From positions 1 through 46,414 of the IMG/VR virus record IMGVR_UViG_3300048997_000259: a stretch of DNA of 46,414 bases; one strand, written 5' to 3'. The notes below the pieces were generated by a model that saw only the letters and a list, made by a program, of their open reading frames with translations, did no database searches and was not told the DNA's origin. A program made the translations under genes and the position numbers. Source of the stretch: a virus. Shown piece by piece: positions 5,018-41,933 of the stretch (within the stretch, counting starts at the first letter, position 1; every line of letters starts with the position of its first letter).

Positions 5018-5623
5018 GTGCCCCACGTCTTTGAATTCGAGCAGGTGATGAGGCTCTTCCGGGCGATGAAGGAAGAGTCGGAAACCGACTGGCTGATGGC
5101 GGTGGTCGCTTTCAATCACTGTCTCAGGCCGCGAGAAGTCGTAGGCGGTGAGTGCGTCCGTACTGACCGGAAAACAGGCAAGATAACCCGCTGGCAGCAT
5201 CCCGGGATCACGACTCAGAGCATTGTGGGGATTCGCATAAGCCTGAAGAGGACCAAAGGATCCGAGCCGGTGGATGACGAGCTATTGGAATCAGTGAATC
5301 CACTCCTAAACGAGCGCCAGGCGGTGCTTGAATTGTGTTTGAAAACCCCGCGAAATCAAAAGCTCTTTCCTATGACCGTCCGGACCTTTCAGCGCCGGAT
5401 GAACTACTACGGAAAGCTCGCCGGTCTGCCTGAAAAGTGGGCGCATCCGCACACCTTGAAGCACTCGATCATTGACCATTTGCGCTTATCTGGCATGAGG
5501 TTAGAGGAACTCCAAGACCGCAGCGGACACAAGAGCCTGGATTCACTTCGCGTGTACATGCACCCCAAGAAAGTCGAGACCGACCGCGCGGTACACACGG
5601 CCCTCCAGAGGGCGCACGTTTGA
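5018..5623 (+). CDS. Tyrosine recombinase, catalytic domain only
   Basis: 201 aa from GTG 5018; an in-frame TGA lies shortly upstream, so no N-terminal domain is hidden. Box I is CLRPREV (R37, E40). Box II is HTLKH (about residues 145-149), with lysine where arginine is usual. Then comes SGHKSLDS with the nucleophile tyrosine in RVYMHP (about Y180). It lacks the core-binding/SAM-like domain of full integrases. It sits immediately before the terminase genes, unlike the integrase at 35175. It may resolve genome multimers or invert a segment; the role is inferred. Confidence 0.8.
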   Translation: MPHVFEFEQVMRLFRAMKEESETDWLMAVVAFNHCLRPREVVGGECVRTDRKTGKITRWQHPGITTQSIVGIRISLKRTKGSEPVDDELLESVNPLLNERQAVLELCLKTPRNQKLFPMTVRTFQRRMNYYGKLAGLPEKWAHPHTLKHSIIDHLRLSGMRLEELQDRSGHKSLDSLRVYMHPKKVETDRAVHTALQRAHV

Positions 5624-5657: not shown

Positions 5658-5993
5658 ATGGCAAAGGGTGGAGCAAGAACTGGGGCGGGTCGCAAGAAGT
5701 CGAAACCCGAGCTGTCGGGTGACATCGACAAACTAATGGCCACACGGGTCCTCGCCAGGGTAGGGAAGCCGGGTTGGACAGACTATGCTGACCTCCGCAA
5801 AGTCAAGTCCGAAGAGGACTTCCATTTGTACCTGTTAGTGCTTCATCCCTACGACCAGTTTCACCGCTTGCAAAATCGCAAGTACGGCAAAGAAGTGCAG
5901 CGCGTCCGCGTGGGCAACCCCGAGGGCGAGAAGCTGAAGCTCCAAGTCGATGTGACCAGCGCCCGCGACAAACTGATCTCGAAGCTTCTCTAA
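5658..5993 (+). CDS. Probable terminase small subunit
   Basis: 111 aa beginning MAKGGARTGAGRKK, a basic N-terminus common in phage small terminase proteins; the C-terminal half is helical and charged (SARDKLISKLL). It is placed directly upstream of and overlapping the large terminase start (TAATGTG). TerS recognises the packaging site on phage DNA and loads TerL. The assignment is from gene order and N-terminal style; no diagnostic HTH is obvious. Confidence 0.65.
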   Translation: MAKGGARTGAGRKKSKPELSGDIDKLMATRVLARVGKPGWTDYADLRKVKSEEDFHLYLLVLHPYDQFHRLQNRKYGKEVQRVRVGNPEGEKLKLQVDVTSARDKLISKLL

Positions 5994-5994
5994 T

Positions 5995-7404
5995 GTGCAA
6001 TCTCTCGCAGAAAAGTTTCGCGCCTTGCCGGAAGACGAGCGCAAGCGCCGTATCGAGAAACTCTCGGAGGCGGAAGCCGATGCTCTCTTGCATGACTGGG
6101 ACTTCTGGGCGCGTCCCGCGCAGCTCGAACCGCCAGAATTCGCGAGGGGCGAGAAAACAAACTGGCTGGTCAAAGCAGGTCGCGGATTCGGCAAGACCCG
6201 CGTGGGCGCCGAGCAAGTCCGCAAGTGGGCGAAGGATTTTCCAATCGTGAACCTGGTCGGTCCAACCGTGGCTGACGTGCGCGACGTGATGGTGCGCGGC
6301 ATCGGCGCTAATTCTTCCATTATGGAAATCTGCCGACGCGACGAGCGCCCGGAGTATGAGCCTTCGAAGCGCCGGCTCACCTGGCCGAATGGTGCGGTTT
6401 CGCTTTTATTCACTGCCGAAGATCCTGAATCGTTGCGCGGTCCGCAGCACATGAAGGTGTGGGGCGACGAGCTGGCGGCGTGGAAGTATCCCGATGCGAC
6501 CATGGAGCAGATTGAATTCGGCTTGCGGTTGGGGTCATCGCCTCAGGGTGTGTACACCACGACGCCCAAGAATACGAAATTGGTTCGCCGCCTGGTGGAC
6601 GATCCAAATACGATCGTGACTTCCGGCTCGACCTACGACAACAAAGCAAATCTCGCGCCGAAGTTTTTCTCCACTGTCGTAAATAGACACGAAGGAACGC
6701 GGATGGGCCGGCAGGAGTTGATGGGGGAACTTCTGACCGACAATCCGGGCGCATTGTGGACGCTGACCGCGATTGACCTCGACCGTATCGGCTTTCTTCC
6801 CGCTGGTCTCACCCGCATCGTCGTCGGCGTCGATCCTGCAGTGACCTCAAATGAAGAATCGTGCGAGACCGGAATCGTAATCGCCGCGATGGGTCTAAGT
6901 CCAGAAGGCAAAGACGACATCCCGCACTTCTATGTGATCGACGATTTGTCGTTGCTGGGTTCTCCCGACGAATGGGCGCAAAAAGTTGTTGTCGCCTACG
7001 CTGAGCAGAAGGCCGATCGCATAATCGCTGAAGTCAATAACGGCGGCGACCTGGTCGAAGCCATCTTGCGCACCAAACGGCTGGAGTTCGCTTACCAGGC
7101 TGTGCATGCAACAAGAGGCAAGATTCGGCGTGCTGAGCCGATCTCCGCTCTTTACGAGCAGCACCGGGTTCATCATGTCGGAGCATTCCCGCAGCTTGAA
7201 GACCAGATGTGCGATTACGTTCCGGGCAAAACCAAGCAATCGCCGGACCGCATGGACGCGCTGGTGTGGGCTCTCTGGGCATTATCCGAGCCGGAAGAGG
7301 TTTCTGACATTGTGACCCACGAAGAGCCGGTGCAGATCGCGCCTGACCTGGATGAAATTTTAGAAGACGCCAGCAATAACAATCCCACTTGGGGAATGTT
7401 CTAA
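5995..7404 (+). CDS. terL: Terminase large subunit (packaging ATPase/nuclease)
   Basis: 469 aa from GTG 5995. The ATPase has Walker A GRGFGKT (residues 62-68) and Walker B MKVWGDE (about 152-158), followed by YTTTPK, the usual coupling motif. The RNase-H-like nuclease begins with GVDPAV (about residue 279) and continues with IIAEVNNGGD and SPDRMDALVWAL, which supply acidic residues. It powers DNA translocation into proheads and cuts concatemers. Length and motif order are normal for the family. A portal gene follows 3 bases later. Confidence 0.95.
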   Translation: MQSLAEKFRALPEDERKRRIEKLSEAEADALLHDWDFWARPAQLEPPEFARGEKTNWLVKAGRGFGKTRVGAEQVRKWAKDFPIVNLVGPTVADVRDVMVRGIGANSSIMEICRRDERPEYEPSKRRLTWPNGAVSLLFTAEDPESLRGPQHMKVWGDELAAWKYPDATMEQIEFGLRLGSSPQGVYTTTPKNTKLVRRLVDDPNTIVTSGSTYDNKANLAPKFFSTVVNRHEGTRMGRQELMGELLTDNPGALWTLTAIDLDRIGFLPAGLTRIVVGVDPAVTSNEESCETGIVIAAMGLSPEGKDDIPHFYVIDDLSLLGSPDEWAQKVVVAYAEQKADRIIAEVNNGGDLVEAILRTKRLEFAYQAVHATRGKIRRAEPISALYEQHRVHHVGAFPQLEDQMCDYVPGKTKQSPDRMDALVWALWALSEPEEVSDIVTHEEPVQIAPDLDEILEDASNNNPTWGMF

Positions 7405-25739: not shown

Positions 25740-27335
25740 ATGGGTCTCACCATCCAAACTCCAGGCGGCTTTTTTGATGTCGCTGATTCCGTCCTAGCTT
25801 CCGGCCAGCCTGCCTTTGCCATCGATCTGGCGAAGATCTACTCGAACTCTGTGCTGGGCATGGTGCGCCCGGAAGTTTTCCCCGGAGTGTACAAAAACGG
25901 GGATACCGTTGCGCTGCCAAAATCGTCCATTGACGGCTATGCCTATTCCCGCGATGAGCTGATTTATTTCTGGACGGTCCGCAATTCAACCGACCCGGAA
26001 ACTCTCTGGATCACTGGCGACGATTCGCTTCAGTACGGCGGCTGGCTGGTCGAGCAATCAACCGGAATCGTTCACTGCGACGAAACCTATCGCCGGTCCG
26101 GCAAACACGCCGATATTACCCACACCAACGACGGAAAGCTCGAAGTATGGACCGTCGGGCAACGATCGCAAGCCGAGATGATCGTTGCTAGTTCGCCAAC
26201 TTACGCGGACATCGATCCGGCCTGGCTGGGAGTGGACAAGCCCTTCACTCAGCAACTGGCCCAAGCCCTTTCCCGTAATGCGAAATTCGCTCTCCTCAAC
26301 AAAGAGTTTTTCTATCTCGGCGAATACTACAACGGGCAGACGGTGGTGATCCCGCATTCCCCGGTCGATGGCTACGCCTACTCGGCTGCTGAAGCCACAT
26401 TTATTTTCTCGCCCCGCTGGACCCCGCCTGGAAACACTTCATCGCTTACCCCGCCTGATCTCTCAAAAGGCCAACTCGGCCCGTTTATGTTCTCGGTGAA
26501 TTCGAGCGGCGTGGTTTCAACCACGGTGAAATATATCGACGATGGCGGGAATCTCAATTCGACCAACGACGGGCGCATTGCGGTCTTCGCCTTTTTCAAG
26601 AGAAGTGGCACGCCGGCAACGCTCTCTGCGGTGGCTGATTTGTTTTCGGAAATCGACTATGACAACTTCATGCCGGGAGACGCGGTCTCCTCGTCGCTCA
26701 TCGATCAGATCGTTGAAAACATTCTGCAATCGCTGGTTGAAGTCGAACGCTTTGGACCGACAACCCACGCGAACGGCGACACCATAGCTCTGCCAACTTC
26801 AGGAGTGGACGGCTACGCCTACGCGCGCGATGAACTGAGTTATTTCTGGACCTGGTCGGACACCTCAAATCAAACCGGTTCGAATCTTCGCTTGCCGCTT
26901 TTCTTTGGCCACATCGATCCCGCGACCGGCGTGGTCACCCTGCATGTGTGGAGGCTTCCGCCTGGTGGACCCTACGTCGATGACGATGACGCGCTGGCCA
27001 GAATCTCGGTAGTGACTTTTGCGCGCAGAAAGACCATCGCGCCGACAGCGTGGCATGCGGCGGAAGGCTCGACGCCACCGACCGGGTCAACTACGACGGG
27101 CGGCGGCGTGGTAGCGGATGTGCCTACCTTGACCGGAGCGACCGGGGAAGCTGCCGGCGGTACAAAAGACAGCTCGAATCAAACCTTCACCATCTCGACA
27201 GCGGGCAAGATTATTTTTCTGGTTTGGAACGGCCAGATCCGCTTCGATTTCACTCAGACCGGAACTTCAACTTCTTTCACCACGGGTTTTACTCCTGATG
27301 CACCGGACACCCTCTATGCGATTTACACAACTTAA
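25740..27335 (+). CDS. Tail fibre-type protein with three internal repeats
   Basis: 531 aa containing three related modules spaced about 146 residues apart: NGDTVALPKSSIDGYAYSRD (near 53), NGQTVVIPHSPVDGYAYSAA (near 198) and NGDTIALPTSGVDGYAYARD (near 345), each followed by an aromatic strand (FWT or FIFSP). This tandem plan suggests domain duplication in an adhesin or fibre shaft. The C-terminus is a Gly/Thr-rich beta region. It overlaps the next fibre gene by about 20 bases. Confidence 0.75.
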   Translation: MGLTIQTPGGFFDVADSVLASGQPAFAIDLAKIYSNSVLGMVRPEVFPGVYKNGDTVALPKSSIDGYAYSRDELIYFWTVRNSTDPETLWITGDDSLQYGGWLVEQSTGIVHCDETYRRSGKHADITHTNDGKLEVWTVGQRSQAEMIVASSPTYADIDPAWLGVDKPFTQQLAQALSRNAKFALLNKEFFYLGEYYNGQTVVIPHSPVDGYAYSAAEATFIFSPRWTPPGNTSSLTPPDLSKGQLGPFMFSVNSSGVVSTTVKYIDDGGNLNSTNDGRIAVFAFFKRSGTPATLSAVADLFSEIDYDNFMPGDAVSSSLIDQIVENILQSLVEVERFGPTTHANGDTIALPTSGVDGYAYARDELSYFWTWSDTSNQTGSNLRLPLFFGHIDPATGVVTLHVWRLPPGGPYVDDDDALARISVVTFARRKTIAPTAWHAAEGSTPPTGSTTTGGGVVADVPTLTGATGEAAGGTKDSSNQTFTISTAGKIIFLVWNGQIRFDFTQTGTSTSFTTGFTPDAPDTLYAIYTT

Positions 27336-29010
27336 GAAAATCTTAACTTTTGCGATTCTCGTCTTCGCTTCCGCTTGCGCCTTCGGGGTGGACTGCAACA
27401 CGGCGGGCTACGCTTGCATGAACCTCGACAGCCAGATCAAAGGCTCACGCCTGCCGAGCTGGGGTGTGGACTCCGGATCGTCGAACGCTTACGCCATTAC
27501 CACGGTCGCGCCTCTCGGCCCAGCACTGAAGACCGGGTCGGTGTTCATGTTCAAGGCCACCCATGCGAATACCAGCGCGTCAACGCTTGTCGTGGATGGC
27601 GGATCGACAATTGCGATCAAAAAGAATGTTTCCTCGGCGCTGACTGGTGGCGAGATTGCGCTGAATGGCGTCACAGAAGTTGTTTACGATGGCACGAACT
27701 TTCAGTGCATGAGCTGCGGAAGCAGCACGGGAACAGTCACTAGCATTGCCACGACTTCTCCGATCACAGGTGGCACGATCACCACGACAGGAACAATTTC
27801 CTGTCCAACTTGTGCAATCGGCCCCGGAAGCTCAAGCGCAAACCATCTGGCGAAGTTTTCAGGCACTGATGGACTCACCCTTGCCGATGGGGGAGCGATA
27901 CCAACGGGAACGGTTACCAGCGTTGCCGAAACCGCACCCAGTGGACTTCTGTCGGTATCCGGCAGCCCGATCACAACTTCTGGAACCTTCGCTTGGAGCT
28001 GGGCTGGAACATCTGGAGGCATCTCATATTTCTCCAGCACTTCAGCCTTGGCTTCGTCCGCGCTGCTTACTAATCATGCGCTCGTTGTCGGCGGTGGAAC
28101 TGGCGCAGCGCCTTCAGTAGTGAGCAGCTTAGGTACGACAACTACAGTGCTCCATGGCAACGCTTCTGCAAATCCATCATTCGGAGCGGTGAGCCTGACC
28201 GCAGATGTCAGCGGAATTCTTCCTGTCGCCAATGGTGGAAACGGAACGGCTACACCAACGCTTTCGCCAGGTGCCAACGTGACCCTTGCTGGAACCTGGC
28301 CGAATTACACCATTAATGCAGCAACGGGTTCAGGTGGAAGTGGCACATCGACAGCACGTCCGAACACTCGCCGCTGGGCTTATGGAGCGCAAACAGGGGA
28401 CAATAATTCTGGCAATTGGTCTGGCACGGAATCCTCAAACGTTGGCTTTAGTGGATCTCTCGGCAGTGCCGCGACAGGGACTGCCACTTGTGGTCCCACT
28501 AGAACAGGGAGCACCGCAGCAACAATAGGAAGCGTGGCCGGTGAAGGTAATAGTGCCGCCCCGATTCGCAACTGGAATTACGGCAAAAATCCGATGTTTC
28601 AGGCGCAAGTCGCGCTGAACAATACAAGCAACGTTCGCCAATGGCTTGTTTTCACCGATCAGACCATTGCCACCGTTGGCGCGTCGGCAACTCCCGCAGG
28701 AAATTCCACCGGATTTCGCTATGACACAGGAGCAGGTGATACCCACTGGCAATGCGGGAGTTCAGCATCAGGTTCTTGGACGTTTGTCGATACCGGAGTC
28801 ACGCCGGATACTTCTTGCCATACCTTTGAAGTGTTGGTCACGTCGGGAACGAACGCAGTCTGCAAAATTGACGGCGGCTCGGCGACGACCGTTTCATCAA
28901 ACCTCCCAGCGAACAGCACAATGCTGGGCTGGCAAGACGAGATTACAGCGCTGGCTGCTTCAATAGTCTCGATTAAATGGTCGTATCACTACTGGGAACA
29001 AGATCCGTAG
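27316..29010 (+). CDS. Large Gly/Ser/Thr-rich tail fibre protein with signal-like N-terminus
   Basis: 564 aa. I choose ATG 27316 (MRFTQLKKILTFAILVFASA), which gives a signal peptide ending ACA-FG. The body (residues 30-350) is low-complexity beta sequence with recurrent GTVTSxA and LVVGGGTGAAPS-like segments (for example TGTVTSIATTSP and TGTVTSVAETAP), typical of phage fibres. The last ~170 residues look like a lectin-type tip (NWSGTESSNVGFSG, DTGAGDTHWQCGSS). A Sec signal on a tail fibre is unusual. It converges with the desaturase-like gene, overlapping 38 bases. Confidence 0.7.
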   Translation: MRFTQLKKILTFAILVFASACAFGVDCNTAGYACMNLDSQIKGSRLPSWGVDSGSSNAYAITTVAPLGPALKTGSVFMFKATHANTSASTLVVDGGSTIAIKKNVSSALTGGEIALNGVTEVVYDGTNFQCMSCGSSTGTVTSIATTSPITGGTITTTGTISCPTCAIGPGSSSANHLAKFSGTDGLTLADGGAIPTGTVTSVAETAPSGLLSVSGSPITTSGTFAWSWAGTSGGISYFSSTSALASSALLTNHALVVGGGTGAAPSVVSSLGTTTTVLHGNASANPSFGAVSLTADVSGILPVANGGNGTATPTLSPGANVTLAGTWPNYTINAATGSGGSGTSTARPNTRRWAYGAQTGDNNSGNWSGTESSNVGFSGSLGSAATGTATCGPTRTGSTAATIGSVAGEGNSAAPIRNWNYGKNPMFQAQVALNNTSNVRQWLVFTDQTIATVGASATPAGNSTGFRYDTGAGDTHWQCGSSASGSWTFVDTGVTPDTSCHTFEVLVTSGTNAVCKIDGGSATTVSSNLPANSTMLGWQDEITALAASIVSIKWSYHYWEQDP

Positions 29011-29788
29011 CGCGTGGCAGTTTGGCTGGTTTAATCATTCGCGCCCATTCTAAGAACGGACCTAGCAAAGCTTCGCTGACCGTGGTGATCTTTTTATCAG
29101 AAAGCCCGCAAGTAATCGATCTCTTGTCGGGAGCGAAGTAAGTTCCGAAGATCACGTCCCACATCGGAAAGAATGCTGCGAAGTTTTTATTGAAGTGCTC
29201 CGGTGAATTGGAATGGTGAATGCGGTGAGTTCGCGGGTTTGCCAAAATTCGATTCAGCGGGCCGAGGCTCAGATTTGAATTCAGGTGGATGAAGTAGCCC
29301 CAAGCGTAAGGCAATGCCGACAACAGAATCGCTGCCGCGACGGGAGGCCGGAACAGTATCAGCATCGGTGCGTCAATGAAAATCACTTCGAGCGGCTTTT
29401 CCAGCCAGTGATGGCGGGTGGCTGTCGTTACATTCATGTGTTCGTCGCTGTGATGCAGCATGTGTTCCGCCCACAGCCATCGGGAGTGATGCTGAAAGCG
29501 GTGAAGCCAGTAATAAAAGAAGTCGTGCACGGCAAGCCAGAGCGGGGCTGTGGCCAGCAAGCCGAGAGATGGGAAATTCATCAGCCCGTAAATGTGCAAG
29601 CGATTCAGCAGCGCATAGACTCCCAGAACTAAGGGAACGGCTAGAAGTGCCTCGGCCACAAAATAGAACACCGTGCAGGTGGCATTGAAGAGCAGATTCT
29701 TGGCGGTGTTCGATTCATCGGCTGGTGACATTCCCTCGATGGTGAAACCGACGAAGTAGGCGACAAGAGTTTGGATCAGTGTGCTCAC
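28973..29788 (-). CDS. Membrane fatty acid hydroxylase / sterol desaturase family enzyme
   Basis: 271 aa, GTG start at 29788. The eight-histidine di-iron pattern is complete: HDFFYYWLHRFQHH (H88, H96, H100, H101), HMLHH (H109, H112, H113), and THRIHH (H188, H191, H192). Hydrophobic spans lie around residues 36-60, 72-90 and 145-170. The family hydroxylates or desaturates lipid acyl chains or sterol-like substrates at the membrane, using O2. Here it is read against the late genes, in an operon with two tiny membrane peptides and a secreted protein: probable lysogenic-conversion cargo. The substrate is unknown. Confidence 0.85.
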   Translation of the reverse strand: MSTLIQTLVAYFVGFTIEGMSPADESNTAKNLLFNATCTVFYFVAEALLAVPLVLGVYALLNRLHIYGLMNFPSLGLLATAPLWLAVHDFFYYWLHRFQHHSRWLWAEHMLHHSDEHMNVTTATRHHWLEKPLEVIFIDAPMLILFRPPVAAAILLSALPYAWGYFIHLNSNLSLGPLNRILANPRTHRIHHSNSPEHFNKNFAAFFPMWDVIFGTYFAPDKRSITCGLSDKKITTVSEALLGPFLEWARMIKPAKLPRATDLVPSSDTTI

Positions 29789-29880
29789 TAACGTCCATCA
29801 CCCAGTGCAATCGCAGCTAGGGCAACAAAAGCCGCAGCCAGTACCCAATTACGTAGATAGGGTTTCATCGAGTGAGCCAT
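29788..29880 (-). CDS. Tiny membrane peptide, cargo cassette
   Basis: 30 aa, MAHSMKPYLRNWVLAAAFVA followed by LAAIALGDGR. One hydrophobic span. Its stop shares a base with the start of the desaturase-like gene (TAGTG) and its start lies within the end of the next upstream peptide gene, so three genes are strictly coupled. Too short for homology; acceptance rests on coupling. Confidence 0.5.
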   Translation of the reverse strand: MAHSMKPYLRNWVLAAAFVALAAIALGDGR

Positions 29881-29975
29881 TTTCTAACCAGTACGGTGAT
29901 GACGGTAGCGGCGGCGATAACAATTGCGAATTCACCCAAACCGCCAGGATCGAGAGATTGATTGCGTGAGATCAT
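29865..29975 (-). CDS. Tiny membrane peptide, cargo cassette
   Basis: 36 aa, MISRNQSLDPGGLGEFAIV then IAAATVITVLVRKWLTR: a single membrane span with a basic end. It starts 4 bases after the stop of the secreted-protein gene and overlaps the next peptide gene. Probably translated as part of the leftward cargo operon; function unknown. Confidence 0.5.
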   Translation of the reverse strand: MISRNQSLDPGGLGEFAIVIAAATVITVLVRKWLTR

Positions 29976-29979
29976 CGGC

Positions 29980-30351
29980 TTAGTGGCAGGCATCGTGAAT
30001 GAGCTGCCACATCAGTCTATCCCCGCCAGCCATTCTGTAGTCGGACCAAATCATTTCGCCAGATTTGAGGGTCAGTTCAGCTGACGCTCCTCGGGTGTGA
30101 AGAATGCTGTCTTCCTGCGCCTCTTTGACTTCAAGCACCGCGTCCGCTTCGGGAGCCTTAGAAGCGAGCGTGAAACACGCTTTGCTGCTCAACATCTTTT
30201 TTCGGGCTTCGAGCGCCTGCTGGTTATTGCCCGAGATGAATATGGACTTCACGGTGCGCAGACGAGAATCACGCGCGGTGTCTTTTGCGACCATCGCACC
30301 GGCAGCCATAAGTACGAGAAGAGCGGTGAGTAAAGCTTTGTTAGGCAGCAT
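29980..30351 (-). CDS. Secreted hypothetical protein, first gene of cargo cassette
   Basis: 123 aa with a signal peptide (NKALLTALLVLMAAGAMVA), then a mature domain containing TVKSIFISGNNQQALEARKK, KACFTLASKAPEADAVLEV and a C-terminal IHDACH. The fold style (short alpha/beta with ADAVLEV) looks like small periplasmic proteins of bacterial chromosomes rather than phage structural proteins. First in the leftward operon behind a good promoter candidate. Confidence 0.7.
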   Translation of the reverse strand: MLPNKALLTALLVLMAAGAMVAKDTARDSRLRTVKSIFISGNNQQALEARKKMLSSKACFTLASKAPEADAVLEVKEAQEDSILHTRGASAELTLKSGEMIWSDYRMAGGDRLMWQLIHDACH

Positions 30352-30379
30352 CCACGAAGTCTCGAATTAAAGGGTTCCC

Positions 30380-30409
30380 ACTTTACCCTTGATCTCCCCA
30401 TCCTGACAA
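30380..30409 (-). promoter_or_regulatory. Candidate promoter for leftward cargo cassette
   Basis: On the minus strand TTGTCA (30409-30404) and TAAAGT (30385-30380) are separated by 18 bases, a good sigma70-like arrangement, about 30 bases upstream of the secreted-protein start. An independent promoter would let these genes be expressed in a lysogen. Confidence 0.5.
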
Positions 30410-30461: not shown

Positions 30462-30941
30462 ATGAAAATCACCGTTCGCCGCGATCTCTATTCTTCGCTC
30501 TCGACGCAGGGAGAACTTCTGCTGGACGCCCAGCACTTCTGTTTCACCCTCGAACCGCCGGTGAAGCTCGACAACACCAAGCCGCGAGCGATCCAGTGTG
30601 GGACATTTCCGCTGACTATCCGCTGGAGTGTCGAATTCGGCAAGCACGTGCCGCACGTCGAGAGCGTGCCCGGCTTTACTACGATCGAGCAGCACATCGG
30701 GAATTCCCCGAAAGACACAAAAGCCTGCACTTTGGTGGGACTCACGCGCGGACCGGAACCGAACTGGATCGGCCAGAGCTTGGTTGCCTGGACGCACCTC
30801 ATGTCCGAATACATGAAAGTTGCGGTGCTCATCAATCCCGAGGCCAAAGACGAAAAGCTGCACGTGTGGAATGTGGGCGAAGTGACCTACGAAGCGGCGG
30901 ACGATAGGCCGGCCGATCTCGATGGTGAAATCGCGGTCTAA
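30462..30941 (+). CDS. DUF5675-like phage protein, lysis-region position
   Basis: 159 aa starting MKITVRRDLYSSLSTQGELL. The run FTLEPPVKLDNTKPRAIQCG, FPLTIRWSVEF, VPGFTTIEQHIGN and TLVGLTRG matches my memory of the DUF5675 family, often encoded beside holins. The conserved order (E-P-P, then P-x-G-T/F-P-L) is suggestive of an enzyme, but no proven activity is known to me. First rightward gene after the divergent cargo cassette. Confidence 0.65.
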   Translation: MKITVRRDLYSSLSTQGELLLDAQHFCFTLEPPVKLDNTKPRAIQCGTFPLTIRWSVEFGKHVPHVESVPGFTTIEQHIGNSPKDTKACTLVGLTRGPEPNWIGQSLVAWTHLMSEYMKVAVLINPEAKDEKLHVWNVGEVTYEAADDRPADLDGEIAV

Positions 30942-35012: not shown

Positions 35013-35174
35013 TTGCCTCTTGACACTGCACTGCTCACGGTGCATCATCCGCAACTCTGTCGGTTTACCGACCGACGCATGAGTTGTGTCACACCTATCG
35101 GGTCGCGATGTTTTGATGGGTTGCCCTGGCTTCCCCGCAGGAGGCAATTCATTGAAATATCCGGAGAGCCCGCA

Positions 35175-36206
35175 ATGGAGCTTATGCCTACAGCTGCGCT
35201 CACGCAGTTGCCCTTCAAGTCCGCATGTGAAGCCTGGTTAGAATCCCGCCGCCCTTATATCTCGGCCAAGACTCATCACGAATACCAACTGAACATCAAC
35301 ACTCTTTCCGCATTTTTCGGGGAGCTGCGTTTGCAGGAGATTGATGGCGATCTGCTCAGAAAGTATCAGCGCATGCGCCAGTTGAAGTGCGGGCCGTTCG
35401 CCATCAATCACGAATGCGGATTGATCTGCCAGATCAGAAAAAAGCGGATGGGGATGCCGATCGAAGATTATCAGCCGCTGCCATTGCCCAAGGAAAAAGT
35501 TGGGCGCGTGCTCAGTGACGAAGAGCGCGAACGATTGCTGCGGGTTGCGGGTTCGAATCCAAATTGGGAAGCCGCATATTTGTTCGCCATGATCTCGGTC
35601 AATACCGGCGCCGGTCCGAAAGAAGTCGCCAGCCTGCGATTCAAAGACGTGGACTGGCAGCGTGAGGAAATTCACATTCCTCCGCACGGCGCGAAGAACG
35701 TTACCCGTATTCGGCCCATCCCGCTCAACTCGGAGGCCATGAAGGGAATCAAGGCGGCTGTTCAGAGAGCGAAGAGACTTGGCTCGACCGAACCGCAGCA
35801 CCACATTTTCCCCTTTCGCAATATTCATCTTTCATGTTTCGATCCCGCCAAGCACCAGACGACATTCAAGACAGCTTGGAAAAAACTCACGAAAGCCGCT
35901 CTGCTCGGGGATTTACAGATGTACGATCTTCGCCGCACCGTAGCGACAGACATGCTGGAAAATCCTGAAATCAGTGATGAGACGATCGAAGAAATTCTCG
36001 GCCACACGCCCGGTTCGCGCACCAAAAAGCTGTACTCCTACATTCGCGTCGAAGCCCGGCGCAAAGCGGTGAATGCACTTTCACCGAAAAAACCAGCCAA
36101 GCAGCGCAAAAATTCTCCCAAGAAAAAGCCCTCGATTTCCACAAACCGCGATGAGCTGGTTTCGCAGCTCTCGACTCTTCTGGCGAAGCTCCTAAAAGGC
36201 GCGTGA
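35175..36206 (+). CDS. int: Tyrosine-family integrase
   Basis: 343 aa from ATG 35175 with CGGAGAG upstream; the frame is open back to 35013 but lacks a better start. An N-terminal core-binding domain (YISAKTHHEYQLNINTLSAF) precedes the catalytic domain. Box I reads NTGAGPKEVASL, with Gly where Arg is usual. Box II is YDLRRT, with Tyr for the first His. GHTPGSRTKKLYSY carries the nucleophile tyrosine. The Lys-rich C-terminus may bind DNA. The attP candidate lies 370 bases downstream. The motif changes suggest a divergent subfamily and not necessarily loss of activity. Confidence 0.85.
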   Translation: MELMPTAALTQLPFKSACEAWLESRRPYISAKTHHEYQLNINTLSAFFGELRLQEIDGDLLRKYQRMRQLKCGPFAINHECGLICQIRKKRMGMPIEDYQPLPLPKEKVGRVLSDEERERLLRVAGSNPNWEAAYLFAMISVNTGAGPKEVASLRFKDVDWQREEIHIPPHGAKNVTRIRPIPLNSEAMKGIKAAVQRAKRLGSTEPQHHIFPFRNIHLSCFDPAKHQTTFKTAWKKLTKAALLGDLQMYDLRRTVATDMLENPEISDETIEEILGHTPGSRTKKLYSYIRVEARRKAVNALSPKKPAKQRKNSPKKKPSISTNRDELVSQLSTLLAKLLKGA

Positions 36207-39036: not shown

Positions 39037-40785
39037 ATGACAAAACTTCCGTTTCCAGAGCGCGTGCTGCATCAGCACATCGCCACGCTGGGCAAGACCG
39101 GCGCCGGAAAATCTTCCGCCATGCGCGTCATTGCCGAGCACCTACTCGACAAGAATCGGCGGGTCGCCATCATCGATCCGAAAGGCGACTGGTGGGGCTT
39201 GAAATCTTCTGCCGACGGCAAGAGCGCCGGTTATCCGGTCATCACCTTTGGCAATTTCAAAGAGGAACGCGCGACTGATGTTCCGATCAATGAGCAATCA
39301 GGCAAGCACGTTGCCGAATTGATTGCCACCGGGAATCGTCCGTGCGTCCTCGGATTTCGCGGCTGGATGCCTGGGCAGCTCACGCGCTTCTGGCTTGATT
39401 TCGCGCCGACTCTTTTCAACGCCAACGAAGGCGAACTGTACGTCATCATCGACGAGGTTCACAACTTCGCGCCCAAGGGCAAGATCATGGACCCGCAAGC
39501 AGGGAAGTGCTTGCACTGGACCAATCGCATCATGAGCGAAGGCCGCGGGCTGGGCCTGACGTTCTTCATTGCTTCGCAGCGCCCGCAGAAGGTCCACAAC
39601 GACACGCTGGACAATTGCGAAACCCTGATCGCGATGCGAGTCACCCATCCGCGATCGCGCGACGCCGCCGAAGAATGGATCAACGCGAAAGGCGATCCCA
39701 AGTTCGAGAAGGAAGTTCTCGGCTCGCTCGCGCAACTGAAACGCGGTGAGGCTTGGGTGTGGTCACCGGAAAACGGATTCGGTCCGGAGCGCGTGCAGTT
39801 CCCGATGTTTCAGACCTTCGATTCTTTCGCGCCGCCGCAAGTTCAAAAGAAAGTCAGTCAGGCGGGCTGGGCGGAAGTGGATCTAGACCAGGTCAAACAG
39901 AAACTTGCGACCGTGATCGCAGAGGCAAAGGCGAATGACCCGAAAGAGCTGAAGGCAGAAGTCTTCCGACTGAGGCAGGAGCTGGCCAAGAAGCCGGCGT
40001 CGGTCACATCGGCGCCGATTGTTCAGGAGAAAGAAAAGATCGTCGAAGTGTCGGTGTTCACCGACAACGACAAGCAATCTCTCGCTGCACTGCAAAGAGA
40101 GTTGTCGGAGATTACGGGCCTCGCCCATGATGTTGCTTCAGTCCAGGCCATCATTCAAAGGGCGATTGACACAGTTGCAAAGCAGCGATTCCTTACTGCG
40201 CCCCCGCGATTCACAAAGCCGATTCCAGCGCCGCAGAATATACGCCACCAGCCAGGGCGAGTTGAATCACACGTCGAATCGAACGGTGACCTCTCTCGCC
40301 CGCAACTCAAGTTGATCGAAGCCCTGGGCGAAGCGGAAGCCATTGGACGCAAAGAAATCTCGCGCTCCTGGCTGGCCTTCATCGCTGGCGTTTCGCCGCT
40401 ATCGTCCGGCTTTGAAAAAAACGTGAGCACTTTAAGTGCGAAGGGAATGCTGCGTTATCCCGCGTCCGGTTGCGTTGCGCTCACTGACGTTGGCCGCACA
40501 CTCGTGCCGCCGATCTCGACGCCGCTGACTACCGAGTCATTGCTCGATCGCGTGTGTCGCTTGTTATCCGGGCCGCAAGAAACATTGCTGCGCGTTCTGC
40601 ATCGTGAATACCCGAACTCTTTGACCAGGTCGGAACTCGCGCGCCACGCCAATGTGAGCGAGTTATCGAGCGGATTCGAAAAGAACGTCTCGACGCTTTC
40701 CGGTCGCGAGCTGGTGGAGTATCCCGGAAAGGGTGAAGTAGTTTGCGCCGATTGGTTGTTCATCGGTGACGAGGTGGCTGCATGA
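39037..40785 (+). CDS. HerA/FtsK-like DNA translocase ATPase
   Basis: 582 aa. Walker A GKTGAGKSS (residues 19-27), a DPKGDWWG signature, Walker B VIIDEVHNF (about 134-142) and the sensor region FIASQRPQKVHND (about 175-187) mark a HerA-type (VirB4/FtsK superfamily) hexameric ATPase. The C-terminal third has two winged-helix-like repeats, each with the phrase SSGFEKNVSTLS (near 455 and 545). Such ATPases move dsDNA. Its presence before a methyltransferase and a Rep gene suggests a role in replication or segregation rather than packaging. Coupled to the next gene. Confidence 0.85.
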   Translation: MTKLPFPERVLHQHIATLGKTGAGKSSAMRVIAEHLLDKNRRVAIIDPKGDWWGLKSSADGKSAGYPVITFGNFKEERATDVPINEQSGKHVAELIATGNRPCVLGFRGWMPGQLTRFWLDFAPTLFNANEGELYVIIDEVHNFAPKGKIMDPQAGKCLHWTNRIMSEGRGLGLTFFIASQRPQKVHNDTLDNCETLIAMRVTHPRSRDAAEEWINAKGDPKFEKEVLGSLAQLKRGEAWVWSPENGFGPERVQFPMFQTFDSFAPPQVQKKVSQAGWAEVDLDQVKQKLATVIAEAKANDPKELKAEVFRLRQELAKKPASVTSAPIVQEKEKIVEVSVFTDNDKQSLAALQRELSEITGLAHDVASVQAIIQRAIDTVAKQRFLTAPPRFTKPIPAPQNIRHQPGRVESHVESNGDLSRPQLKLIEALGEAEAIGRKEISRSWLAFIAGVSPLSSGFEKNVSTLSAKGMLRYPASGCVALTDVGRTLVPPISTPLTTESLLDRVCRLLSGPQETLLRVLHREYPNSLTRSELARHANVSELSSGFEKNVSTLSGRELVEYPGKGEVVCADWLFIGDEVAA

Positions 40786-41933
40786 CCTGTGGAATGTGCG
40801 GCGCTCCCATCTCGCTCACCCGTCGCCTCTGCGGTCTGTGTCTTAACCGGGCGCATCTCGCCGGCTGCCCCTCGCCGAGTAGCGAATGCAGTTGCGGATT
40901 CTCCGAGTTGTTCTGGGCGGACGTGGAAGCTTGCTATCTGGCGATGCCGCTCTGCATCGAGCTTTACGCCGGATTGCACGGCTGGGGAGAAGGCTTTGCC
41001 ACCGAAGGTTATAGGTGTGTGGGATTCGACATCGTGGACATGTGCGCCCTGCTCGGACATCGTCGGTCGGCGAGTTGCCAGCTGGTTTTGCAGGACGTGC
41101 TCACCCTGCACGGTTCGCAGTTCAAAGATGCGGCGGTGATCGTGGCTTCGCCACCGTGCCAGGAATATTCGTATCGGGCGATGCCCTGGTCGCGCGCCAG
41201 GTCCTTACCGCCGCCAGACAATTCTCTTTTCGAAGCCTGCTTCCGGATTCAGCGTGAAGCATGCGAAGCTGCCGGCCGATTCATTCCGCTGATCGTTGAA
41301 AACGTCAGAGGCGCGCAGAAGTGGGTTGGCAAAGCCAAGTGGCATTTCGGCTCGTACTACTTGTGGGGAGATGTTCCCGCGCTGATGCCGATTGCTCAAT
41401 CGCGCAAGATCGCCGGCCAGAACTGGAAAGATTTTCGCCGCACCGGAGAAATCTCTCCGCACTGGCGAATGAAGGCGTTTCAATCGCTGCCCAACGATGG
41501 CGGTTACAAGTGTGCGCAGTTAATAAAGTTCGACGACGGCGCGTCCCATACCAGGCACCTCACCAATCCGGCTGAGCACGTGCGCATCGAGTACGCGGGA
41601 GTCAAGTTGGCATCGCCAGGGCACTACCGCAAATCCGGCAGCGGACCTGATTGGTTCGATGGCGGCGGGGCTGCCAGTGGATCGAACTCCCTGAAGCGCA
41701 AAGCCGCATCCGCGATGCTGGCGAAGATCCCGTTTCCTCTCGCGCAGCACATTGCGCGGGTCTTTCACCCCAGCAGCTTCGGGGTTGATCTTGATCTTGG
41801 TTTTGCTTTTGGCGCTCGCCCTCCCGAAATTCGCCGGATCACGGACGATTCCGGGCGAGACGGAGGGACACCGGCTTATCCCCAGGCAGGCGATAGCGGT
41901 GCGCTCCCCTCAGGGGCGGGGGGGTGGTCTTGA
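40782..41933 (+). CDS. C5-cytosine DNA methyltransferase with N-terminal zinc ribbon
   Basis: 383 aa. N-terminal ribbon CGMCGAP...CGLC (residues 3-20). The methylase core follows: motif I ELYAGLHGWGEGF (about 59), FDIVDM for the SAM-acidic site, motif IV ASPPCQEYS with the catalytic cysteine (about 124), and motif VI IVENVRG (about 173). The target-recognition part is short and non-standard. It starts within the ATPase stop (ATGA), so it is made with HerA. Likely DNA protection or modification; whether it targets phage or host is unknown. No restriction enzyme is adjacent. Confidence 0.8.
   Translation: MTCGMCGAPISLTRRLCGLCLNRAHLAGCPSPSSECSCGFSELFWADVEACYLAMPLCIELYAGLHGWGEGFATEGYRCVGFDIVDMCALLGHRRSASCQLVLQDVLTLHGSQFKDAAVIVASPPCQEYSYRAMPWSRARSLPPPDNSLFEACFRIQREACEAAGRFIPLIVENVRGAQKWVGKAKWHFGSYYLWGDVPALMPIAQSRKIAGQNWKDFRRTGEISPHWRMKAFQSLPNDGGYKCAQLIKFDDGASHTRHLTNPAEHVRIEYAGVKLASPGHYRKSGSGPDWFDGGGAASGSNSLKRKAASAMLAKIPFPLAQHIARVFHPSSFGVDLDLGFAFGARPPEIRRITDDSGRDGGTPAYPQAGDSGALPSGAGGWS

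Follow-up and report, generated by a model that had tools for sequence, protein, structure and literature searches.

Why a tailed phage should carry a gene for a membrane-bound lipid hydroxylase, transcribed against its own late genes, is the question raised by the DNA analysed in the current study, a stretch of 46,414 bases from an IMG/VR virus record (IMGVR_UViG_3300048997_000259; the window in what follows). The gene is part of a four-gene cassette that lies between a tail-fibre-type gene and a gene of family DUF5675 (listed below). We favour, with moderate confidence, the view that these two genes enclose an exchange site, that the cassette is conversion cargo, and that the hydroxylase would alter the envelope of the lysogen, excluding superinfecting phages. 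A first-pass annotation of the same DNA had already proposed lysogenic-conversion cargo, on the grounds of position and of a promoter belonging to the cassette. The promoter candidate proved to be at chance level, but sequence comparisons support a di-iron lipid-hydroxylase-family gene as conversion-type cargo, because a second phage (L008) repeats the arrangement of hydroxylase and MISRNQSLD peptide with a divergent hydroxylase, because in a further record (G005) a gene of the O-antigen-acetylase type occupies this site in the orientation of the cassette, and because a third phage (L021) pairs its hydroxylase with a protein of the superinfection-immunity type.

27298–29010, plus strand: last tail-fibre-type open reading frame (ORF), 570 amino acids (aa); weak match over residues 54–133 to tail fibre proteins of Pseudomonas phages
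28973–29788, minus strand: PF04116 membrane hydroxylase, OlsE-like, 271 aa, GTG start (Pfam, NCBIfam, AlphaFold2)
29788–29868, minus strand: 26-aa membrane-type peptide, MKPYLRN... (ORF list and sequence)
29865–29975, minus strand: 36-aa membrane-type peptide, MISRNQSLD..., contained in a 42-aa ORF starting at 29993
29980–30351, minus strand: 123-aa exported-looking protein, signal-peptide-like N-terminus by eye, no Pfam or PHROGs family
30380–30409, minus strand: promoter candidate of the first-pass annotation, a consensus match at chance level
30462–30941, plus strand: DUF5675 gene, other border of the exchange site (PF18925, E 6.4e-23; phrog_1501)
35013–36206, plus strand: tyrosine integrase, indicating a temperate lifestyle (phrog_1, E 1.9e-37; PF00589)

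The hydroxylase gene and its cassette

The window is assigned to a temperate tailed phage, since it carries YqaJ exonuclease, terminase, portal, Mu-F-like, capsid and integrase genes. Its host we take, as an impression only, to be a member of the Acidobacteriota.

The hydroxylase scored 102.1 bits against PF04116 in Pfam (E 4.3e-29; cut-off 31). Residues H96, H100, H109, H112, H113, H188, H191 and H192, which we take to be the ligands of the eight-histidine motif, are invariant, together with H168, in all 34 rows of alignment A6, and the AlphaFold2 model has a mean predicted local distance difference test (pLDDT) score of 88.7. By its sequence this is a complete di-iron-type lipid-hydroxylase-family gene, as the first-pass annotation had it. 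The sole NCBIfam family matched was OlsE (NF052566; 92.4 bits, E 3e-26), which was also the best match of the hydroxylases of L008 (85.6 bits) and L021 (86.3 bits). All three lie below the equivalog cut-off of 475 bits, and as such the window enzyme is classed as OlsE-like, and not as OlsE by the equivalog test. Cellular relatives were taken as the best 80 of 534 by tblastn, from at least 593 candidate stretches; these reach 38% identity over the full length or 43% over part, and closer ones may exist. Scans of genome contigs and of viral contigs were based on short peptide patterns, by which relatives get missed. A single-protein scan of the genome contigs gave no hydroxylase relative, and single-protein scans of the viral contigs with the window hydroxylase and portal gave no match.

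Read along the minus strand, the cassette runs from the 123-aa protein through the 36-aa and 26-aa peptides to the hydroxylase. Four bases separate the stop of the 123-aa gene from the MISRNQSLD start, the start of the 26-aa peptide overlaps the stop of the 36-aa peptide (ATGA), and the stop of the 26-aa peptide overlaps the start of the hydroxylase (TAGTG). These junctions fit coupled translation of the cassette, and the two tiny membrane peptides and the secreted protein are arranged as originally described. Among plasmids, the secreted protein gave only matches with E = 8, and its predicted structure was discarded as a clue (mean pLDDT 43). The hydroxylase gene lies on the strand opposite to the late genes, which is the placement expected of a moron; it is convergent with the fibre-type ORF, for which Pfam gave no match, and overlaps the 3' end of that ORF by 38 bases. 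Transcription against the late genes was therefore correctly recognised at first sight. The location had been given as between fibre and lysis genes, of which the fibre side stands while lysis genes are inferred for the window; the next gene is the DUF5675 gene, and its PHROGs match, phrog_1501, is annotated as function unknown.

A proposed exchange site and an acyltransferase-like peptide

Homologs of the DUF5675 gene border the equivalent site in two other records, L002 (G003; 70% identical, and found by way of this gene) and L107 (G005; 36%). In G005 an acyltransferase gene, the product of which begins MSTRNQSLDVLRG, has a convergent fibre-type gene on one side and the DUF5675 homolog on the other, with the same order and orientations as in the window. 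The protein matched phrog_3333 (O-acetyltransferase, E 2.9e-35) and phrog_6705 (O-antigen acetylase, E 1.1e-32); by these matches, the equivalent site of G005 is shown to hold, in the same orientation, an acyltransferase of the O-antigen-acetylase kind. The acyltransferase gene of L110 (G004; phrog_3333 E 2.9e-30, phrog_6705 E 7.2e-32) and a neighbouring fibre-type ORF are convergent, and on the other side of the acyltransferase gene a 1975-aa ORF starts. In L002 the site holds MATRNQSLDVLRWWRR, which has the orientation of the window cassette with respect to the late genes and is coupled through ATGA to a membrane ORF; the hydroxylase had no match within 12,260 of the 33,650 bases of this contig.

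The 36-aa peptide of the window and a 41-aa peptide of L008 have the start MISRNQSLD in common, with 26 of 27 bases identical, and RNQSLDVLR is common to the L008 peptide and the full acyltransferases. Scanning the viral contigs for RNQSLDVLR gave seven contigs: L008, L002, the two with complete acyltransferases, and three (L103, L104 and L108) that were rejected as containing unrelated ORFs. When the L008 peptide was compared with the N-termini of the two acyltransferases, its score was reached in none of 1000 shuffles in either case, and that of the L002 peptide in 0 and 1 of 1000. A second RNQSLD-like start in L002 (MITRNLYLG...) was dismissed as no more similar to the acyltransferases than chance allows (score reached in 348 and 473 of 1000 shuffles). 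At the level of sequence, the window and L008 are thus shown to have a hydroxylase module with a short peptide, the start of which matches such an acyltransferase. A complete acyltransferase domain was not found in the RNQSLD peptide: PF01757 was over the cut-off in two of six records, G004 and G005, and gave no match in G000, G001, G002 and G003. As only the first residues are alike, the peptide is classed as a 'remnant' and not as a member of the family. The 36-aa peptide of the window is probably the N-terminal stump of an acyltransferase-3 gene, and what looks like such a stump is also present in L002.

Other genes therefore occupy this site in related phages, as is expected where morons are carried, namely the acyltransferase of G005 and other ORFs in L002. 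Unrelated genes at this position had been named beforehand as an observation that would speak against cargo. They do occur, and the cargo reading stands because a cargo-exchange site predicts exactly that. The order of events would be that the site once held an acyltransferase and then took up the hydroxylase module, the first residues of the acyltransferase being left behind as a coupled microprotein. The pattern points to an exchange of envelope-remodelling enzymes among such viruses, by which the surface of the host would be altered or protected.

Hydroxylase genes in other phage contigs

The contigs used for comparison are IMG/VR records, taken as metagenomic from their names. Three of the eight viral contig scans used hydroxylase alignments and yielded 13 distinct contigs, 12 (L008–L019) from the first, L021 from the second and none in addition from the third. 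Pfam was run on the proteins of L010, L011, L013, L014, L015 and L019 along with that of the window, and all were over the PF04116 cut-off; the hydroxylases of L008 and L021 were assigned through tblastn and NCBIfam. Close to the window enzyme are those of L008 (48% identity over nearly the full length) and L021 (44%). The three cluster in a 54-row tree (90/95), built without L009, L012–L019, rows shorter than 150 residues and rows more than 80% alike, and in a 26-row tree of hand-chosen rows from which the long branches L004 and L011 were left out (93/98; neither value starred). This grouping bears on whether the gene is a passive hitchhiker, i.e. a host gene acquired recently and not under selection for any function in the phage. 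The turnover of cargo at the site would agree with such an origin, but the three phage hydroxylases group apart from the cellular rows, and the ligand histidines and the reading frame are all kept across three phages at 40–50% identity, which argues for long purifying selection; a hitchhiker is accordingly regarded as very improbable.

In L008 (G001) the hydroxylase gene is convergent with a fibre-type gene (796 aa), the 3' end of which it overlaps by 16 bases. Upstream of the hydroxylase are a 76-aa membrane ORF, the 41-aa membrane peptide, which is joined through ATGA to the previous stop, and an exported-looking protein, and the neighbours on the other side of the cassette are a MarR-type gene and an integrase. 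This second phage probably binds or cuts a glycan, since its fibre-type gene (L020, 10777–13167, convergent with its hydroxylase) has a GH43 glycosidase domain (E 4.2e-10).

In L021 (G002) the hydroxylase gene (5847–6716) has an integrase on one side and a second recombinase on the other, with an endolysin gene (phrog_181, E 3.8e-39) nearby, and its start shares bases with the stop of a 42-aa ORF. The gene 28 bases after it matched PF14373 (Imm_superinfect, E 4.5e-13) and phrog_1039 (immunity to superinfection, E 2.4e-18). Directly after the integrase and just before the hydroxylase, the 5' half of a CAT-anticodon tRNA-like sequence was seen by eye (5515–5575), a possible attachment site; ARAGORN gave no whole tRNA in L021.

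A different phage, L010, which encodes Hc3 and Ad3 connector proteins, carries a PF04116 gene convergent with a tail-fibre gene, the ends of the two being 18 bases apart. A single clade of L010 with the hydroxylases of the window, L008 and L021 was rejected (p-AU 0.0165; the L010 branch is long). Judged from tree and gene order, this unrelated phage independently placed a hydroxylase gene tail-to-tail with a fibre gene. Among the five phage-like contigs with a full-length hydroxylase whose context was inspected, convergence with a fibre gene was seen in three (the window, L008 and L010; not L021 and L011). In L011 (3566–7342) a 304-aa PF04116 protein (E 7.1e-27) stands between a lysozyme-like ORF and a spanin-like pair, as read by eye, and the protein of L012 has the same length and start.

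Such neighbours raise the alternative of a part in lysis, in which the exported protein and the small membrane peptides would serve the lysis programme and the hydroxylase would change the membrane at that stage. The DUF5675 region adjoining the cassette, the endolysin gene near the L021 hydroxylase and the lysozyme- and spanin-like ORFs of L011 would agree with this. Against it, the hydroxylase genes of the window, L008, L010 and L021 are on the strand opposite to the late genes, and hence not on the late transcript, and the L008 cassette has the MarR-type gene and integrase on its other side. We consider a lysis accessory very improbable.

Short PF04116-type ORFs (142–189 aa) occur in other settings in L013, L014, L016 and L019, and the proteins of L015, L017 and L018 have the same length and start as that of L016. 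The 142–148-aa PF04116 proteins of L013 (4626–8192) and L014 (7178–8396), both large viral contigs, have as neighbours ORFs in which histidine motifs like those of fatty acid desaturases were seen by eye, possibly a different, and possibly marine, phage lipid-gene cluster. The L009 hydroxylase was set aside as plasmid-like, with length and N-terminus as in the P. aeruginosa plasmid pPAMH19 (L006). A tblastn search of INPHARED gave two matching contigs labelled 'Acinetobacter phage MD-2021a', which were rejected as phage evidence because of the chromosomal neighbours nahG, pcaK and dctA (the surroundings of one contig were checked). L004 (CAKLQH020000004.1), which bears this name, looks mislabelled as a phage, with bacterial chromosomal genes around the match.

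The window has a second tyrosine recombinase gene (5018–5623) besides the integrase (PF00589), and L021 likewise has two; the former is similar to the second recombinase of L021 and to one in L002. The protein encoded at 39037–40785 is of the P-loop type, with PHROGs matches to both terminase and FtsK/SpoIIIE-like proteins and a homolog in L020, and its gene is overlapped by a DNA-methyltransferase-like gene (40782–41933).

Proposed envelope modification and comparison with known systems

In a lysogen, the OlsE-like membrane di-iron enzyme would add a hydroxyl group to a host envelope lipid; if one lipid had to be named it would be, with little confidence, an amino lipid of the ornithine type. 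Together with the small membrane and exported partners, the lipid change would alter adsorption or DNA entry of phages using the same surface, and the lysogen may also be helped under stress. The most likely role is envelope modification in lysogens, probably superinfection exclusion.

The enzyme could instead be an ordinary metabolic moron, altering lysogen membranes for tolerance of acid or temperature stress with no exclusion of phages. In line with this explanation, genes for OlsE-like enzymes are cellular and many plasmids carry them (a match was present in 240 plasmid records), but receptor or entry control is the better fit to the repeated placement against a fibre gene (window, L008 and L010), to the alternation with an O-antigen-acetylase-type gene and to the Imm-type partner in L021. 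A host-fitness gene of this kind is rated as unlikely, although less so than the other alternatives.

Several observations weigh against exclusion cargo. Taken alone, the window peptide is only weakly similar to the two acyltransferases (score reached in 14 and 96 of 1000 shuffles), and its likeness is carried by identity to the L008 peptide. Pairwise comparison found no similarity between the exported proteins of the window and L008. Only two of the four cassette genes are recognisably homologous in this second phage, and a four-gene order conserved in other phages, a check put forward with the first-pass annotation, was rejected. The L021 hydroxylase lies beside integrase and endolysin and is not convergent with a fibre gene, and that of L011 is encoded on the strand of the surrounding ORFs. 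PF14373 may, we presume, be a general bacterial membrane-protein family, of which the name is no proof of immunity. A single promoter candidate was present, read from 30409 to 30380, where shuffles gave a mean of 1.2 (sd 1.1), and a conserved promoter was abandoned as evidence; hydroxylase, orientation and partners were confirmed as first observed, this element was not.

The best-described surface conversion driven by phages is sugar chemistry, i.e. glucosylation and acetylation of the O-antigen. More tentatively than the role in exclusion, it is proposed from the sequences that unrelated phages independently recruited OlsE-like hydroxylases beside receptor-binding genes, and with them a chemistry new to superinfection exclusion, in which membrane lipids of the host are hydroxylated where others acetylate O-antigen sugars, and that the enzyme was swapped into an acetylase site, with the first residues of the acetylase kept as a coupled membrane microprotein. 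If true, host lipids, too, would be rewritten by temperate phages, and superinfection exclusion would extend to lipid chemistry. Among open-access PMC titles and the starts of abstracts, none was found that dealt with a PF04116 hydroxylase carried as conversion cargo by a bacteriophage, while giant-virus papers were present.

The fatty acid hydroxylases of giant viruses (nucleocytoplasmic large DNA viruses) share superfamily and predicted fold with the window enzyme, with BFVD matches that include Barrevirus, Fadolivirus and Orpheovirus. Unlike the window phage these are eukaryotic viruses; identity is 16–23% over the first 19 of 21 BFVD rows, and no phage is named among the 21. The best solved neighbour of the model is the yeast sphingolipid fatty acid 2-hydroxylase Scs7p (4zr0, 4zr1; Z 5.1 over 169 aligned residues, root-mean-square deviation 5.3–5.4), but at 15–17% identity, a Z range that can be mere arrangement, and a Foldseek E of 5.2. 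Foldseek of the model against the PDB gave no match at E <= 0.001, nor did PDB sequence searches with the hydroxylase and alignment A6 at E <= 1. The closest characterised relative is OlsE, of the same superfamily, which according to a passage of PMC3972451 hydroxylates the ornithine moiety of ornithine lipids. The window enzyme differs in being phage-borne, convergent with a fibre gene and, at 92 bits, well below the cut-off of 475.

Regarding exclusion systems, PMC11436027 states, in an excerpt, that T4 Imm blocks DNA injection and that D3 Oac alters the O-antigen so that phage cannot bind. A gene related to such immunity proteins (PF14373, phrog_1039) directly follows the hydroxylase of L021, whereas Pfam and PHROGs searches found none among the window cassette proteins. 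Seroconversion genes lie near int-att-xis in many S. flexneri phages, and receptor-changing genes are commonly near int-att in Shigella phages, as summarised in part of PMC8787464. With the O-antigen acetylase cargo of Sf6, Sf101 and D3 (Oac), the window cassette shares the position of a conversion-type gene beside receptor-binding genes, and the equivalent site of G005 holds an acetylase-type gene; it differs in that a lipid hydroxylase stands where the sugar acetylase would be, with only a short acyltransferase-like stump left. By analogy, the cassette most plausibly works like D3 Oac, T4 Imm or the seroconversion genes, with lipid hydroxylation replacing sugar acetylation.

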